Assembly: GCA_008012315.1 (NCBI GenBank)
Contig: SSEL01000012.1
Coordinates: 62,001-126,000 of the forward strand
Source of the DNA: Rhodospirillaceae bacterium
GTDB taxonomy: Bacteria; Pseudomonadota; Alphaproteobacteria; Dongiales; Dongiaceae
Length of the DNA: 64,000 nt
Direction of reading: 5' to 3'
The notes under the pieces were generated by a model. It saw only the letters and a list, made by a program, of their open reading frames with translations, made no database searches and had not been told where the DNA came from. The translations under genes and the position numbers were made by a program. This document shows positions 55,422 to 61,219 of the stretch, one piece after another. Each line of letters starts with the position of its first letter. Within the stretch, counting starts at the first letter, position 1.

Positions 55422-55940
55422 TCAGGTCAAGCGCTTGATCCACTCGGCCGCGGTAGGATGGGTGGCCAGCAAGGCCGATGCGTCAGCCATCTCGAAATCG
55501 GCAAAATCGAAGCCCGGTGCCACCGTGCAGCCGACGAGGCTATAGGCCGAGCCGGGCGCGGGGCAGGCGCCGAACCAGCGGCCGGCCGGCACCACATGCT
55601 GCGGCACTTGGCCGGCGGCGAAATCGGTACCGAGCAGCGTCACCTGGGCCTCGCCGCTCTCGGTCAGCTCAATCACCTGCAGCGGATCGCCGAGATAGAA
55701 ATGCCAGACTTCGTCCGAGCGGATGCGGTGCAAGCGTGACCGGTCGCCGGATGCCAGCATGTAATAGATCGCCGTCGATGCCTGGCGGTCGCCGGAAAAA
55801 TGCTGCGCGAGACCGGCGGCGGGCAAGGTCAGCGCGGCGCGGTAGGTTTCGCGAAAGAAGCCGCCTTCGGGATGCGGCTGCAAGGCAAGGCGGCCGACCA
55901 GATCCCTGGCCGGGGCGGGCAATGAAGTATTGGCTGGCAT
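55422..55940 (-). CDS. DUF985 (Cupin_5) protein
   Basis: The 172-residue protein has the DUF985 pattern: LALQPHPEGGFFRETYRA, STAIYYMLASGDRSRLHRIRSDEVWHFYLGDPL and QVPQHVVPAGRWFGACPAPGSAYSLVGCTVAPGF. It is a metal-binding cupin of unsettled function. ATG 55940 follows AGGTGG; a GTG at 55949 is in frame upstream. Confidence 0.9.
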   Translation of the reverse strand: MPANTSLPAPARDLVGRLALQPHPEGGFFRETYRAALTLPAAGLAQHFSGDRQASTAIYYMLASGDRSRLHRIRSDEVWHFYLGDPLQVIELTESGEAQVTLLGTDFAAGQVPQHVVPAGRWFGACPAPGSAYSLVGCTVAPGFDFADFEMADASALLATHPTAAEWIKRLT

Positions 55941-56102
55941 GATATCCACCTGCGGAAATAGATGTCGAGGTCGTCAGGCATGCCGGCCAATAAGGGGATG
56001 GTTGCGGTTTTATTGGAACTTTCCGGCATCGCGCATGCGTTATGCAGGCTAGCATAACGGTCGATGGCCGGTCACGGGATTAGGCGGGGAGAGTGACGGC
56101 GA

Positions 56103-57062
56103 TCACCGCCACTTCCATTTCCATTTCTTTTTGGCACGGCCGATCAGCAGGAAGTCTTCCGGCTTGTCATTGTCGGTGAAATCGACGAAACCGCCGAAGA
56201 ATGCCGTAAAGGCGGCTTCCTGCCCGATATCTTTGATGAAGTCATCGGCAATCGCGATGTAATCGGGTCCATAGCCTGTGCTCGGCATCGTACCGCCGCT
56301 CTGTTTGGCAAACCATGCATCGATCACCAGGCCGGAGAGACGGCTCGTCATGCCTTCGTTCAGTTTGTCGGTTTCCTTCATGCCCCGCACTTGCATCAGA
56401 TAGATGAAATCGCTCCAATTCGGATGGGCGTAAGCATGGGTCATTTCGTGGGCGATGACGCCGGCGGTTATCGAGGATTCGCGGAGCGAGATCGTTTTCG
56501 TGCTGGGCGAGTAAAAGCCGTCCACATCGGCGGCTTCCTTCTTGGCGAGAGCAATCGTCAGCATGCGCGCAATCGAGAAAACGGCGGCGTCTTCATCGGG
56601 CGTCAGGCGGGTTTTCTCATCGACAACCGACAAACGGCTGGGCAAGGATTCTCCCTGGGCCTTGTAGAAGGCGATCAGTTTCCGTTGCACAACATCGGGG
56701 GTGAATTTCAAGGCCTTCTTTTGCAACTGCGCGGCAAGGCGCTTTGCCTCGGCCTCACTGGCTTTCTCAAAATCGCCATCGGCGACGACCGCGAGGGTGA
56801 CCTTGCCGCCGATCGCCGGGCCATAAGTGATCTTCGCGCCGCCGGTCTTGATCTGTCGCGACAAGACCTGCTTGAAAAACGGTTGAAGCTCCTTGGCAAG
56901 TTTCTGCGCCGCCGCGAGTTCCTTCGCCCGCGCGGCCTTGGCCTGGGCCGCTGCCTTTGCGGCGGCCGCTTTCGCTGCAGCGGCCTTCTTCGCATCCTGC
57001 GGATTGTCGAATTCCCGCAGCAGGATCTGGAACTCCCGTTCCATATGAAGTCGCTCTCGCAT
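56103..57062 (-). CDS. Putative HExxH metallopeptidase with EREF leader
   Basis: The 319-residue protein starts MRERLHMEREFQILLREFDN, after GGAGG five bases upstream. An alanine/lysine-rich coiled-coil-like stretch follows (about 25-60). The C-terminal half has a zinc motif HEMTHAYAH at about residue 216 and, about 30 residues later, NEGMTSRLSGL with a possible third ligand Glu (gluzincin-like). No signal peptide is seen. No family name is certain. It is the last gene of a four-gene minus-strand cluster and shares its EREF start with the gene at 59824. Confidence 0.75.
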   Translation of the reverse strand: MRERLHMEREFQILLREFDNPQDAKKAAAAKAAAAKAAAQAKAARAKELAAAQKLAKELQPFFKQVLSRQIKTGGAKITYGPAIGGKVTLAVVADGDFEKASEAEAKRLAAQLQKKALKFTPDVVQRKLIAFYKAQGESLPSRLSVVDEKTRLTPDEDAAVFSIARMLTIALAKKEAADVDGFYSPSTKTISLRESSITAGVIAHEMTHAYAHPNWSDFIYLMQVRGMKETDKLNEGMTSRLSGLVIDAWFAKQSGGTMPSTGYGPDYIAIADDFIKDIGQEAAFTAFFGGFVDFTDNDKPEDFLLIGRAKKKWKWKWR

Positions 57063-57090
57063 CGAAACCTCCGGGTCGAAGAAACGGTCT

Positions 57091-58503
57091 TCAGACTTGC
57101 TGTTCGATGGTCGGTGTTCCGGAGCCGCCGAGATCGACGCCAGTCAGGCTGCGATAGGCGGTCCGATAGGCTTCCACCTTGGTCTCGATTTGGTAGAGCC
57201 AGGTATCCAGTTCCTGGCCCGGGGCGTTCTGTTCGTGATCGATCACTTCAAGGTCGAGCAGCAGGTCGCGGCCGTGTTCGGCGCAGCGTTTGTGCTCCAG
57301 ATAGGGATTGATCTCGCCATGGGTTACCGGCCGCTTGAGGACGAGGAGGTCATAGGCGGCGGGGATGAATTCATGGGCATCGCCATAGGCCGGCGGGATG
57401 CCCAGCGTCTCGCGCAACTCGCGGATCATCGCCATGCCGGCAATGGTCCAGACGATCCCGGCCAGGGTGTTGTAGTAGTTGCGGCCATAGGCGAAGGCCT
57501 CGAAACGCTTCTTCAGGACATCGATCGTGTTGCTGATGGTGATCAGCGTCGCGACCGACGGTGGCGCATCCGGCACGGCGGTGCCGCGAATGGCGACCGC
57601 CAGGCGCTTATCCTTGTAGTAATCCAGCGCATTGGCGATGAAGCGATGGAACAGGGTGCTGAAGCCGGTATTGACCTCTGTATCGAGATTGAGGCCGCGG
57701 CCGGGCTTCGAGGTCCAGCCGAGCGTGGTGCGGTAGAGGCAGGCGCGGTCGCGCACCGTCGGCGCCAGGCCCATCTTGGTCTGCCGCACCATGACTTCCA
57801 GGACCAGCGCCACGATATCGTCCTTGATCGCCATGCTGAGCGACCCGTTCGAGATGGGCAGGCGGCCGTTATAGGCAAAGGCGTCCAGGATGACGCCGAG
57901 GATCTGCTGGATGCCCATGCGCTCGAAATAGAACAGCCACAAAGCGTCAGCGACGAAAAGCCGGCGGATGCCGTTGGGGACGGTCGGCAGGGTCGGCTGC
58001 GGCGGCAGGTTGCGCTCGCCGTCCAGCGTGACGCAGGGGGAACAGAGGCAGCATTCGCTGGGCCATTCATGCTGGTGATAGTCATAGTGAGCGTTGGATT
58101 CATGCCGCTCGATGATAATGCCGTTGGGGCAGTCCAGCAGGGCCGGATCGAGCACGGCATGGAGATGATTTTCGATATCCTCCCACTGGCCCGAGCCGCC
58201 GATCTTCGTCTGGCCCAGGATATGGTGACGCCGGAACTTGAAATAATCCCTGAAGAATTTCGTCACGTCGTCGCTATCGCCGGTGCGGATCAGGGCCAGG
58301 AGCTCGTCCGTGCAGGGCGGGAAGGCGACGGTCAGCCGGCGCTTGCCGCGCAGCAGATCCGTCGTGTTGACGACAGGCGGCCGCTCCATCTTGATGATGA
58401 GGGAAGCCGGGACGGCTTGTGCAGCGGAAGCATTGCCTGCCGATGCGGCGTTCGGACTAGCTGAGAATTGATCCGATTGCTGGTTCTCTGTGTCCTTTGC
58501 CAT
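57091..58503 (-). CDS. Unknown protein of the EFE-leader cluster
   Basis: The 470-residue product starts at ATG 58503 with AAGGAG upstream. After a serine/alanine-rich N-terminus it has no family I recognise. A His/Cys-rich stretch at about residue 130-155 (RHESNAHYDYHQHEW, then ECCLCSPC) could bind metal. The middle and end are helical, with a possible weak membrane helix (YYNTLAGIVWTIAGMAMI). Codon use matches neighbours. It lies 28 bases upstream of the metallopeptidase gene and is probably co-transcribed. Confidence 0.7.
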   Translation of the reverse strand: MAKDTENQQSDQFSASPNAASAGNASAAQAVPASLIIKMERPPVVNTTDLLRGKRRLTVAFPPCTDELLALIRTGDSDDVTKFFRDYFKFRRHHILGQTKIGGSGQWEDIENHLHAVLDPALLDCPNGIIIERHESNAHYDYHQHEWPSECCLCSPCVTLDGERNLPPQPTLPTVPNGIRRLFVADALWLFYFERMGIQQILGVILDAFAYNGRLPISNGSLSMAIKDDIVALVLEVMVRQTKMGLAPTVRDRACLYRTTLGWTSKPGRGLNLDTEVNTGFSTLFHRFIANALDYYKDKRLAVAIRGTAVPDAPPSVATLITISNTIDVLKKRFEAFAYGRNYYNTLAGIVWTIAGMAMIRELRETLGIPPAYGDAHEFIPAAYDLLVLKRPVTHGEINPYLEHKRCAEHGRDLLLDLEVIDHEQNAPGQELDTWLYQIETKVEAYRTAYRSLTGVDLGGSGTPTIEQQV

Positions 58504-58554
58504 CTTGATCGTCTCCTTGTCAGCCGTTTCAGCTATTTTTGTCTGCGATCGCCC

Positions 58555-59811
58555 TCAAAGCGCGTGCCGGTAGTTCCGGCCGAGCCGTATCAGCCAATCC
58601 GACATGAGGCGGTCGAGCGGCGCTTCGCCGATCGGGTACCATTCGCGGACCATGCGAAAGACCGCGAGCTGGACGCTGGGCGCCAGGCCGGTCAAATCGA
58701 GCCGGCCGCTGCGGATGCCGCTTGCCCGGCGCTTCAATTCATTGGGCGCCAGCGGTGCGAGATCGAAGAGATCGAGCAATCTGCGCCGCCCCAGCACGCG
58801 AAAGCGCGTGTCGAACAAGGCCTGGCCGACCACGGGGATGGCGCGCCTCGCCTGCAGCAGAACGCGCCGCGTCTCGGTAGGCGCGGCATCGAGCGGATAG
58901 GCGGCCAGCCATTGCCGCTCCCAGTCGTCCCAGGCGCCCTGGCCCCAGGCGCGGCGGCACCAGTCGAAGGTCAGCAGCGCCCGCAGGTAAGGCGGCGGAT
59001 GCGGATCGTGATAGGAAACCCGCAGCGCATGACCCGAGGGCAAAGCGAAGAGATCGCGGATCGCCGCCGCTTCGGCAATGCCGGAAAGCGCGAAGGCCCA
59101 GAAATCGGGGCCGATCTCGAATGACCACTGCGCATAGAGATGGCGGATCTGCCGCGGCGCCCCGGCCCGTGCCAGCGCATCCTGCAAGGTTTCAGCCAAA
59201 GCGGATACCAGTTGCAGCCGCGCCAGACCCTGATGGCCGGATTCGTGCAGGATGGAGGTGAGGTTGTGCTTCTCCTTCAGCCGGCCGTAGGGGATCTGCA
59301 ACAGCGGCATCGGGTTCGGCGAGGTGTCGGGAAAAGGCACGCTTTCACGCACGATGGAGGCGCCGAAGCCGCGATCGCAATAGACCAAAGGCGGCTCGAT
59401 GATACTGAGCGCCGGATGGTCGCGGCGCATGGCATCCATTGCCAGCGCGTCGCAACCGCGCAGAATGGCGCCGAGTTCCGGCGAATTGCGCTGGGTCAGC
59501 ACATCCATGTAGGTATCGAAGAAGAGAAAGGCCCGTGACAGGTCGAGTTCGATCTGACCCAGGGCGGCATTCAGCCGCCGCGTCGCCCGGCCATCATCGA
59601 TATGCGGCAGCAACTGATCGGTGGCGCGTTTGACGTGGGACGACAGGCGGGCGGTCGCGGCGGCAAGCTGCGGCTCCAGCACGGCCCATTGACGTTCGGA
59701 AATATCCTGCTGTGGCGGAAGGTTCACGAGACGCCTCAAACTGCTCAGACTGCCGATGCGGAAAAGCAACGATTCCGCCCGCTGTTGCAGGTAGTTGCTT
59801 CGGTTGATCAT
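58555..59811 (-). CDS. Unknown protein with an HExxH motif, EFE-leader cluster
   Basis: The 418-residue product has a helical N-terminal half and a zinc-binding-type motif in NLTSILHESGHQGLARL at about residue 190. A conserved-looking GIAEAAAIRDLFALPSGH follows. The C-terminus is arginine-rich. No family recognised; a peptidase or maturation role is an inference from HExxH alone. Its ATG lies 12 bases after the stop of the leader-protein gene, so it is the second gene of the cluster. Confidence 0.7.
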   Translation of the reverse strand: MINRSNYLQQRAESLLFRIGSLSSLRRLVNLPPQQDISERQWAVLEPQLAAATARLSSHVKRATDQLLPHIDDGRATRRLNAALGQIELDLSRAFLFFDTYMDVLTQRNSPELGAILRGCDALAMDAMRRDHPALSIIEPPLVYCDRGFGASIVRESVPFPDTSPNPMPLLQIPYGRLKEKHNLTSILHESGHQGLARLQLVSALAETLQDALARAGAPRQIRHLYAQWSFEIGPDFWAFALSGIAEAAAIRDLFALPSGHALRVSYHDPHPPPYLRALLTFDWCRRAWGQGAWDDWERQWLAAYPLDAAPTETRRVLLQARRAIPVVGQALFDTRFRVLGRRRLLDLFDLAPLAPNELKRRASGIRSGRLDLTGLAPSVQLAVFRMVREWYPIGEAPLDRLMSDWLIRLGRNYRHAL

Positions 59812-59823
59812 GATTTTGTCGGG

Positions 59824-60729
59824 TCAGCGCCCGACGATGATCAGCTTGATCCGCTGTCCCGGTGCCACTTTCAGGCGGATGACGCGCGCCTGGCCATGCG
59901 GTCCATGCGGTCCATGCAGGCCATGCTGCCCATGATATCCGCGCCGCCGCATGCCTCTTCCCGGCGCGCGGTGCAGGCTCACGGCCCGCGACTGCGCCCG
60001 GCCGATCGCATGACGCATGGCATTGTTGGCCAACCGCGCGGCTTCGGCGGGTTTGTCGGCATGCTCGGTAACGTTGTCGGCGAGATATTCATAGGCTTCG
60101 CGCGCCAGGTTGACGTAATTCTCCCAGGCCTGCTGGTTGCGCTCGGGATATTCGCTGGCGGCGAGGCCGAGTGACTTCACCGCATCGAGCGTGGCCGTTC
60201 CGCCCGGCACCACGGTGCCGAGCGCCTGCTTGCCGATATTCAGCAGGGCGCCTTTGACATTGCCCTTGGCCAGTTGCATGGCGGCTTCGACGCCGGGGAA
60301 GAATTTACCGGCGGCGAATTTCAGGCCCTTCTTGGCGAGAGACCGCAGGATCTTGCTTTTGCCGAGCTTCTTGATGCCCCGCACCAGGCCCCCGAACAGG
60401 TATTCGCGCGACATGTCGTCCAGGACTTCGTTCATCGCCTGATCGACTTCGCTCTCGGATTCGAATTCGCGGGAGGCGATTTCCAGAAAGCGTTCGACAT
60501 ATTCCTGATCCTGTCCGGAAACATCGCCGCTTTCATCATCGGCTTCAAACTCCTCATCCTGCTCGAACTCTTCGTCGAGCTCGGAAGCCTCGTCATCGGC
60601 TTCGTCTTCCTCGAATTCCTCATCGCTTTCCATGTCTTCGAATTCCTGCTCGATGGAGCCATCCTCCATTTCGAGTTCGAATTCGCGTTCCAATTGCGAA
60701 AAATCCCTCAGATCGCGATTTCTTGCCAT
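59824..60729 (-). CDS. Acidic EFE-leader protein with glycine/lysine-rich amphipathic core
   Basis: The 301-residue product starts at ATG 60729 with AGGAG upstream. Residues about 12-65 are very acidic, with repeated EFE/EEFE units (LEREFELEMED, EEFEEDEADD). Residues about 110-180 switch to a basic, glycine-rich, amphipathic or hydrophobic stretch (FGGLVRGIKKLGKSKILRSL, FAAGKFFPGVEAAMQLAKG, GALLNIGKQALGTVVPGG). A helical part and an H/G-rich tail (HGLHGPHGPHGQ) ending VIRLKVAPGQRIKLIIVGR follow. No signal peptide. The build recalls a pore-forming or antimicrobial core behind an acidic leader, but that is inference. Confidence 0.75.
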   Translation of the reverse strand: MARNRDLRDFSQLEREFELEMEDGSIEQEFEDMESDEEFEEDEADDEASELDEEFEQDEEFEADDESGDVSGQDQEYVERFLEIASREFESESEVDQAMNEVLDDMSREYLFGGLVRGIKKLGKSKILRSLAKKGLKFAAGKFFPGVEAAMQLAKGNVKGALLNIGKQALGTVVPGGTATLDAVKSLGLAASEYPERNQQAWENYVNLAREAYEYLADNVTEHADKPAEAARLANNAMRHAIGRAQSRAVSLHRAPGRGMRRRGYHGQHGLHGPHGPHGQARVIRLKVAPGQRIKLIIVGR

Positions 60730-61219
60730 GGTGTACTCCTGTCATCGTCGGCAGTGCAGGCGTATAGGCGAGCAGACGTATAGGCAAAGTGACCCATGCC
60801 CGGTCGCAAAGCGACGAGCGGAACGGAAATAAAGATGATCAAAATCGTGACGCAATGCCGAAGCTCGGCATCGCCCCATCGATCGCTACATCAGGCGATC
60901 GGCAATCGTCATCACTGATACGTGCGCAATCGATCCTTGTTCACGCAAGGCCGTCACGCTTCATACAGCCAACGCAACGCAATTCTTACTGCGGTGGTCT
61001 GACGCGCGCCGCGAACAATCTATCAGACGTTCGTCGGTTGAGATTGATGCGCAGTGGATGATGAGAAGGATACATCGCTCAATGCGGCATCACAAGCATC
61101 ATGCATGCAATCATATGTCGAAAGGAGCCGAATTCGCACTCCGTCACATGCGTCGATCACGATGAATATGACGGAGTACGTCCGCGCTTCATATCGCCTC
61201 ATCCAAATGGATGAGAGAT
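60730..61219. other. Intergenic region upstream of the EFE-leader cluster
   Basis: The left end holds the promoter and AGGAG site of the leader-protein gene (minus). The remainder, to the stop of the P1 peptidase gene, has lower GC than the genes and no protein-like frame; a frame at 61054-61296 (+) overlaps the peptidase gene and has no good start. No known RNA motif was recognised. Confidence 0.4.

Follow-up and report, generated by a model that had tools for sequence, protein, structure and literature searches.

Three genes stand in a fixed order in distantly related bacteria, and unrelated proteins encoded downstream of them share an N-terminal tag. Across 13 carrier genomes, no comparable tag match was found elsewhere. 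One such locus lies in the window, by which we mean the whole stretch of 64,000 nucleotides analysed. The tag likely directs the enzymes that bear it to shared machinery for delivery or release. Judged from sequence comparison, the three genes, which we call lead, M418 and C470, are a conserved core of families without annotation, patchily distributed from Planctomycetota to Bacteroidota.

The minus strand of the window carries four open reading frames (ORFs) in series, encoding 301, 418, 470 and 319 amino acids. They lie at 60729-59824, 59811-58555, 58503-57091 and 57062-56103, which confirms the four minus-strand genes with short gaps described by the first-pass annotation. Read from lead to the fourth gene, M319, the gaps are 12, 51 and 28 bases. 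Shine-Dalgarno-like stretches were seen by eye upstream of the lead, C470 and M319 starts. The ORFs are more than chance, since at E≤1e-3 the database contains 413 relatives of M418, Dongia soli among them, and 357 of C470. The features of the locus are as follows.

59824..60729, minus strand: lead (301 aa), with an acidic EFE leader, a conserved ERF-EL-x-REFESESE-type box, a basic Gly/Ala-rich helical core and a C-terminal R-V-I-x-L-x-P-G-E-x-I-type tail
60667..60699, minus strand: S-Q-L-E-R-E-F-E-L-E-M box of lead, resembling the cargo tag by eye
60160..60393, minus strand: basic amphipathic Gly/Ala-rich core of lead, behind the acidic half (charge calculation)
58555..59811, minus strand: M418 (418 aa), second core gene, a predicted zinc metallopeptidase by motif conservation
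59233..59247, minus strand: HESGH of M418; H189, E190 and H193 invariant in 17 aligned sequences of 19-56% identity
59116..59118, minus strand: E232 of M418, candidate third zinc ligand, invariant in 17/17 aligned
58999..59001, minus strand: H271 of M418 (D-P-H-P motif), candidate active-site residue, invariant
57091..58503, minus strand: C470 (470 aa), third core gene, mostly helical, of no known family
58033..58053, minus strand: CCLCSPC segment of C470, found in 8/16 clade-I loci
56103..57062, minus strand: M319 (319 aa), tagged variable-slot cargo, a predicted HExxH...E peptidase
57018..57059, minus strand: cargo tag of M319, R-E-R-L-H-M-E-R-E-F-Q-I-L-L, scoring 23.5 from the tags of other loci, above all 108 control ORFs
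56436..56450, minus strand: HEMTH of M319; H205, E206, M207 and H209 invariant in 8/8
56355..56357, minus strand: E236 of M319, candidate third zinc ligand, invariant in 8/8

The motifs named at first pass were located at residues 189-193 of M418 (HESGH), 151-157 of C470 (CCLCSPC) and 205-209 of M319 (HEMTH). The lead features it named, an acidic EFE leader, a glycine/lysine-rich core and an H/G tail, were likewise present in the window sequence. A Pfam/NCBIfam scan of the core trio gave nothing above cut-off. Candidate families for the four proteins, among them GD_AH_C, DALR_1, Aspzincin_M35, SprT-like, HxsA4 and CLCA_X, all fell far under curated cut-offs. For the window proteins, PADLOC returned zero matches and PHROGs only matches at E≥0.015; hence, no defence or phage assignment was made. 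Sequence searches against solved structures returned nothing convincing, the best being a C470 alignment of 69 profile positions with E 0.0059. In open-access papers, we found no description of the trio or the tag.

At all 15 loci found with C470, lead, M418 and C470 had identical order and strand, with the lead homologue first; this count is conditional on C470, because the loci were retrieved using it. Going by record names, the loci span at least five phyla. The names include Brocadia, Sphingomonas, Alphaproteobacteria, Deltaproteobacteria, Acidobacteria, Myxococcales and, among Bacteroidota genera, Spirosoma (S. panaciterrae DSM 21099, clade I) and Pontibacter. Of the four genes grouped at first pass, all are real and three co-occur far beyond close relatives, but M319 falls outside the conserved core. 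A divergent clade possesses a related trio, which sits on plasmids of rhizobia and Paraburkholderia. One Rhizobium locus encodes a glucosaminidase/DUF2272/PG_binding protein with an EFE-rich leader. By eye, the clade-I tag could not be made out on most neighbours in the divergent clade (for example, the L017 genes and the trypsin-like protein of L035). Within the conserved core, neither a membrane protein nor an ATPase nor an immunity gene was recognised, and inspection by eye of the listed neighbours adjoining the loci revealed no immunity gene.

The slot downstream of the core holds variable genes, whose products open with the tag x-E-R-x-x-[F/L]-E-x-E-[I/L/V]-x-x-L. Tags were initially chosen by eye. 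Each slot gene was then scored using tags from other loci only, with 108 ORFs that were neither core nor downstream as controls. The score exceeded that of every control ORF for 20 of 21 tagged slot genes. In L015, whose first downstream gene was absent from training, that gene scored 16.1 against a control maximum of 8.2. The scoring omitted L011 and the L007 slot gene, in whose sequence the tag is visible. The first downstream gene of L011 has a weaker tag-like start. When 13 whole genomes were searched with the tag, all 22 matches at E<0.1 were at the cluster (20 of them rows of the model) and the next match had E 0.467. The lowest E-value, 1e-4, belonged to a second tagged L005 gene unseen by the model. 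The M319 tag, itself a model row, was the sole match in its genome at E≤10. The tag search in 95 relatives gave a lowest E of 0.035.

Wall peptidases and amidases are represented among the slot proteins, as are OmpA-type domains, trypsin, a nuclease and an oxidase. A Pfam cut-off was passed by 13 of 21 tagged proteins, nine of which bear peptidoglycan-directed domains; the other eight matched no family above cut-off. None of 22 slot proteins has a signal-peptide-like hydrophobic segment in its first 60 residues. Cargo types recur between distant loci (L001a-L003c, E 1e-238; L003b-L010, E 1e-161). Some tagged proteins, such as the amine oxidase and the PhoD-like protein, could act intracellularly. 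M319 had been proposed as a processing enzyme of lead. Its database entries number eight including its own, with Dongia soli among the relatives, and, elsewhere, unrelated proteins occupy its slot. With such replacements and only seven relatives, M319 looks like one cargo protein among many and the processing role is not supported.

The downstream Glu expected of a third zinc ligand is kept in both HExxH proteins (E232 in 17/17 M418 sequences; E236 in 8/8 for M319). The homologues of both thus carry a predicted gluzincin-like HExxH...E zinc metallopeptidase signature. In M418, the HExxH, downstream Glu and His are retained across the two clades. The AlphaFold2 model of M418 had a pLDDT of 89.2 and a pTM of 0.86. 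A Foldseek search with it found no solved structure at E≤0.001, so the peptidase assignment rests on motif conservation. VIA-align returned mostly helical bundles or other helical proteins, covering mainly residues 1-111. With so little of M418 covered, that comparison is compatible with a holin or peptidase fold. By hydropathy, the maximum 19-residue Kyte-Doolittle mean of M418 is 1.36. For C470, Foldseek likewise gave no match at E≤0.001 and VIA-align returned mostly helical bundles and other helical proteins. Among the 120 matches listed for each of M418 and C470, nearly all are 53-72% identical. We dropped CCxCxxC as a hallmark of the C470 family, since only 8 of 16 loci carry it. The suggestion that C470 is an exporter is not supported; its maximum Kyte-Doolittle mean is only 1.51 (19-residue window), with no strongly hydrophobic segment, making a membrane exporter unlikely. 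C470 could be a modification enzyme of an unrecognised type.

The lead proteins span 255-323 aa, and their C-terminal helical region and tail are conserved. In the window, the first 112 residues of lead have a net charge of -42 and the 40 after them one of +9. An acidic half followed by a basic half is kept in 14 of 14 aligned near relatives, counting the window's own row (net charge -32 to -43 in the first half, +15 to +23 in the second). The H/G-rich tail is not general among aligned leads.

Our favoured explanation, which we put at a little short of even chances, is that the conserved core recognises the tag and releases or delivers cargo enzymes, which have no recognisable signal peptide, to the site of their substrate. 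We infer the following route. The tag would fold into a short amphipathic helix and dock on a core protein. In lead, the acidic half may shield a basic Gly/Ala-rich, membrane-active half that provides passage across the membrane. M418 would cut near the leader or the tag, freeing lead, cargo or both, with C470 serving as a soluble adaptor. The cargo (cell-wall peptidases or amidases, OmpA-type wall binders, nuclease, protease or oxidase) would act on the cell wall and cell contents, either of a rival or of a sister cell undergoing lysis; in this window, it would be the putative HExxH...E peptidase M319. The first-pass interpretation, a precursor peptide processed by metalloenzymes, is partly supported. 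Somewhat doubtful is the proposal of an unrecognised delivery system, in which three soluble core proteins read a 14-residue N-terminal address tag and export interchangeable wall-, protein- and nucleic-acid-degrading enzymes with no Sec, ATPase of their own or contractile needle. Should the tag be an address label, it would supply a sequence rule for finding the cargo of an unrecognised system, and the label is a short, portable peptide. Such delivery would account for wall hydrolases without signal peptides reaching their substrate.

Programmed lysis of the producer is an unlikely alternative. Here, lead would lesion the membrane on cue, and cytosolic wall hydrolases inactivated by their tags would break the wall and spill the other enzymes. 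Holin-endolysin modules similarly pair a membrane-active protein with wall hydrolases that lack signal peptides, and the membrane-active candidate here is lead, with its basic Gly/Ala-rich half. The lack of a recognised immunity gene fits such a scheme. So do a sigma-54 activator gene near one divergent-clade locus and -24/-12-like sites upstream of lead in 3/7 divergent loci. However, no such site is prominent in the window and, among 15 clade-I leads, at most one (L014) has a prominent one upstream. Moreover, the window lead lacks a clear transmembrane segment by hydropathy (maximum 19-residue mean 0.99), and several loci, including the window, have no recognised wall hydrolase among the scanned tagged proteins. 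The cargo differs from holin-endolysin modules in adding nuclease, oxidase and proteases, and M418 and C470 are conserved extras. No M418 relative was found in viral contigs, and 50,697 phage records contained none at E≤1e-5.

It is less probable again that M418 matures lead as a bacteriocin-like precursor, with C470 as a partner and the tagged proteins as co-regulated accessories; M319 would not be the maturase. The acidic-then-basic layout of all 14 aligned leads is consistent with this, as is an HExxH protein encoded immediately 3' of lead. Bacteriocin precursors are short, whereas the leads measure 255-323 aa and have a conserved helical C-terminal region and tail. There is no transporter among the scanned core and tagged proteins, and the tag shared by unrelated enzymes is left unexplained.

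We give still less credence to an intracellular compartment or condensate, in which acidic EFE leaders and tags gather enzymes in a cytosolic body with no export. The core and tagged proteins appear soluble, and some cargo is redox or phosphatase-like. Encapsulin cargo is likewise loaded by short terminal peptides, mostly C-terminal, which mark unrelated enzymes for one assembly. Conversely, the tag here is N-terminal, the HK97-type shell protein family was not found among scanned core and tagged proteins, and the nine tagged proteins with peptidoglycan-directed domains have their substrate outside the cytosol.

It is most improbable that a contractile injection system, whether type VI or extracellular, uses the tagged proteins as effectors and loads them by a new kind of tag: although the cargo types resemble such effectors and a VipB or phage-sheath match (E≤0.001) occurs in 10/21 carrier genomes, neither was found in 11/21, including 5 of the 13 with the near core, an absence that is not certain because several genomes are draft assemblies. 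VipB alone was found in 6/21 genomes, the window's genome not among them. The phage-sheath family was matched at E≤0.001 in 6/21 (five over cut-off); two matches lie in the genome of the window, both away from its contig.

The tagged slot proteins combine a constant N-terminal element with varied effector domains, as polymorphic toxins do. In Zhang et al. (2012, PMC3482391), polymorphic toxins with an N-terminal PVC-type metallopeptidase share this arrangement, a metallopeptidase in the system and recombining cassettes. Unlike in the toxins described there, a core gene of its own encodes the peptidase here, the constant element spans ~14 residues, and no VipB or sheath match was found in 11/21 carrier genomes. 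In the part of PMC7159879 that covers MoxR-vWA conflict systems, a small constant effector-associated domain similarly ties varied enzymes and effectors to a multi-gene core. Set against that account, the trio has no MoxR, vWA or STAND family match, and the tag is a short peptide and not a folded domain.

Residues E14, E16 and E18 of the lead box are invariant across 14 aligned leads; the tag matrix gives leads low scores and they do not rank as tag bearers. One stretch of M418 scores up to 9.1 with the same matrix, exceeding all 108 control ORFs.

Four genes lie in a row on the minus strand of the window, with intergenic gaps of 12, 51 and 28 bases, as described in the first-pass annotation.

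60729-59824, minus strand: lead gene (301 aa product)
59811-58555, minus strand: M418 gene (predicted HExxH zinc metallopeptidase, 418 aa)
58503-57091, minus strand: C470 gene (470 aa product)
57062-56103, minus strand: M319 gene (HEMTH protein, 319 aa)

None of the four proteins had a Pfam or NCBIfam match over the curated cut-off, or a PADLOC match at E<=0.1. Database protein searches returned at least 413 relatives of M418 and at least 357 of C470 at E<=1e-3; in each, the ~8,000 candidates with most shared words were scored and 120 listed. For M319 there were 8 entries, including the window's own protein. Named near relatives of M418 and M319 occur in Dongia soli. The 490-base gap upstream of lead (60730-61219; G+C 0.53, against 0.61) is likely a control region. 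Its last 300 bases show no conspicuous −24/−12 site.

A scan of genome contigs with a C470 alignment gave 15 loci. In every one, homologues of lead and M418 precede C470 in that order on a single strand, C470 being present by construction. Going by the taxa named in the record titles, the loci span five phyla or more (Planctomycetota, Pseudomonadota, Acidobacteriota, Myxococcota and Bacteroidota). One further record is titled Deltaproteobacteria and one only bacterium. The genes after C470 differ between loci. Of the four genes first grouped together, the trio of lead, M418 and C470 forms the conserved core, and M319 sits in a slot of varying content.

The trio in this form is rare and patchy, because few genomes hold relatives of M418 or C470. 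Of 299 genomes from the phylum to which the window's genome belongs, 4 had M418 relatives (in 3 of the 4, members of a divergent clade of remoter M418 proteins) and 1 had C470. Among 96 relatives of the window's genome, 3 had M418 relatives, with the near type only in the window's own. The corresponding M418 counts were 4 of 247 genomes for Spirosoma's phylum and 3 of 199 for the phylum of locus L004, search centre counted in both. Yet nearly all of the M418 and C470 matches listed are 53-72% identical. Patchy presence at such identity suggests spread by horizontal transfer.

M418 is predicted to be mostly helical with good confidence (pLDDT 89.2), and residues 1-111 of the model resemble three-helix coils. 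The HExxH motif noticed at first is conserved together with a candidate third ligand: H189, E190, H193 and E232 are invariant in 17 sequences (identity down to 19%), as are D236, H271, P272 and R277. C470 is also predicted to be mostly helical (pLDDT 77.1). Its CCxCxxC segment is kept in only 8 of 16 loci, so the family can do without it. Foldseek found no PDB match at E<=0.001 for either model. The acidic first part and basic second part of lead, also noticed at first, recur in all 14 aligned leads, where the net charge is −32 to −43 in the first half and +15 to +23 in the second. A conserved ERF-EL-x-REFESESE-type box and a C-terminal tail are present in most rows of the lead alignment. Over their whole length, the window's core proteins have 19-residue Kyte-Doolittle maxima of 0.99, 1.36 and 1.51.

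Genes after C470 start alike. This tag, x-E-R-x-x-[F/L]-E-x-E-[I/L/V]-x-x-L, was first spotted by eye. The 21 examples align without gaps; all have E at position 9, F, L or M at position 6 and L or V at position 13, and 18 have R at position 3. Positions 6, 10 and 13 would share one helix face. At each locus, the longest non-overlapping ORFs of at least 150 aa were scored with a position matrix made from all other loci's tags; 108 ORFs that were neither core nor downstream served as controls. Twenty of the 21 tagged genes outscored every control (maximum 8.2). The sole exception, the first slot gene of L014, scored 6.5, a value reached by 2 of the 108. The first slot gene of L015, absent from training, scored 16.1. 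Where no tag was apparent by eye, downstream genes scored 7.2 or less, no better than the controls. A conserved stretch within M418 homologues gave them scores as high as 9.1, an argument against the matrix being specific to cargo alone. This stretch (residues ~38-50, E-R-Q-W-x-V-L-E-x-x-L; 5.6-9.1 in several loci) looks like the tag and might mimic it.

Against 13 whole genomes, a profile of the 21 tags gave 22 matches at E<0.1, every one at the cluster. Twenty are rows of the profile itself. Another is near-identical to a row (L013/L012), and the last, with the lowest E-value overall, comes from L005, where a second tagged gene lies at the end of the contig. A further 22 matches, from E 0.467 up, lie on other contigs. 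Across 95 relatives of the window's genome, no match was better than E 0.035 and five fell below 0.1, which is chance level. Following M319 at 55422-55949, also on the minus strand, is a gene for a Cupin_5/DUF985 protein (E 1.9e-51), which lacks the tag (matrix score −7.4) and appears unrelated to the cluster. Four of the five Bacteroidota loci (L012, L013, L014 and L015) have a tag (e.g. MERNLLVREV) and a first box of lead (e.g. SEFEQEFELD) that depart from those of other loci; at the fifth, L009, both take the common form. It is as if the tag and its reader co-vary in these four.

The tagged proteins, or cargo, were scanned against Pfam. Thirteen of the 21 passed a curated cut-off: VanY (two), M15 with PG_binding (one), OmpA (four), Amidase_2 with PG_binding (two, one also with SLT), and trypsin, AHH nuclease with SH3, amine oxidase and DUF7800/PhoD (one each). 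The other eight, M319 among them, had no match over the cut-off. Several cargo types are common to distant loci; therefore, interchangeable cassettes appear to occupy the slot, a picture that M319 fits. The full MRERLHME start is present in the window's M319 and 2 of its 7 relatives, and a third relative starts at the ME. The four remoter relatives have no tag and keep the catalytic region and Trp-rich C-terminal end. All eight proteins carry K-x-W-x-W-x-W-R near the C-terminus. This Lys/Trp-rich stretch (KKWKWKWR at 56106-56129 of the window) resembles a membrane-binding peptide.

Thus, a constant trio is accompanied by an address-like tag on unrelated enzymes. We infer that the trio delivers them, because 9 of the 21 have peptidoglycan-acting or peptidoglycan-binding domains, whose target lies outside the cytosol, and no signal peptide is recognisable in any of the 21. 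By hydropathy, no signal-peptide-like hydrophobic stretch occurs in the first 60 residues of these proteins and one near-identical copy (0 of 22); the top 19-residue mean, 1.39, falls at the start of the oxidase's flavin-binding domain. Most economically, the tag would stand in for a signal peptide and the trio would supply passage or release. Within the trio, lead is the foremost candidate for a membrane-active role, M418 for processing and C470 for acting as the adaptor. The strongest rival to delivery is self-lysis of the producer cell. A contractile needle seems not to be needed, since no VipB or phage-sheath match at E<=0.001 occurs in 11 of 21 carrier genomes. Several of these assemblies are drafts, however, and the window's own genome has two sheath matches, located on other contigs.

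A tag on varied cargo recalls the constant N-terminal element on varied effectors described for polymorphic toxins (PMC3482391) and effector-associated domains (PMC7159879). The trio itself has no family match to either system. No published description of the trio was found in the literature searched.

A tblastn search of plasmids found 6 records with M418 relatives at 28-32% identity (Rhizobium, Ensifer, Bradyrhizobium and Paraburkholderia), and genome searches added further divergent loci. The trio in its divergent form is represented by L016, L018, L019, L025, L026 and L032-L035, which lie on plasmids of rhizobia and Paraburkholderia, among other places. Among 13 divergent loci examined, 8 encode an acidic protein whose tail fits the pattern W-x-R-x-G-x-x-I-I/V, and 10 had a distant C470 relative at E<0.1 (5 at E<1e-3, lowest 5e-8; E-values computed for ORFs of those loci only). 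A profile of eight divergent C470-like proteins (523-833 aa) matched the C470 profile over 248 columns (probability 79.6, E 1.5e-5). By eye, the tag of the near-type loci is not evident on most neighbours here; this clade suggests that the trio arose before that tag. Sites resembling −24/−12 elements precede lead in 3 of 7 divergent loci, and 0 of 200 shuffles were as good. The L035 cluster encodes a PLP aminotransferase-like protein, a trypsin-like protein and a sigma-54 activator. In Rhizobium, a protein combining glucosaminidase, DUF2272 and PG_binding domains starts with an EFE-rich leader. A remote relative of M418 at L017, on a plasmid of Bradyrhizobium quebecense, lies amid patatin, phospholipase D, CHAT, S8 and M4 peptidase and GMC oxidoreductase genes, possibly another cargo-rich cluster.
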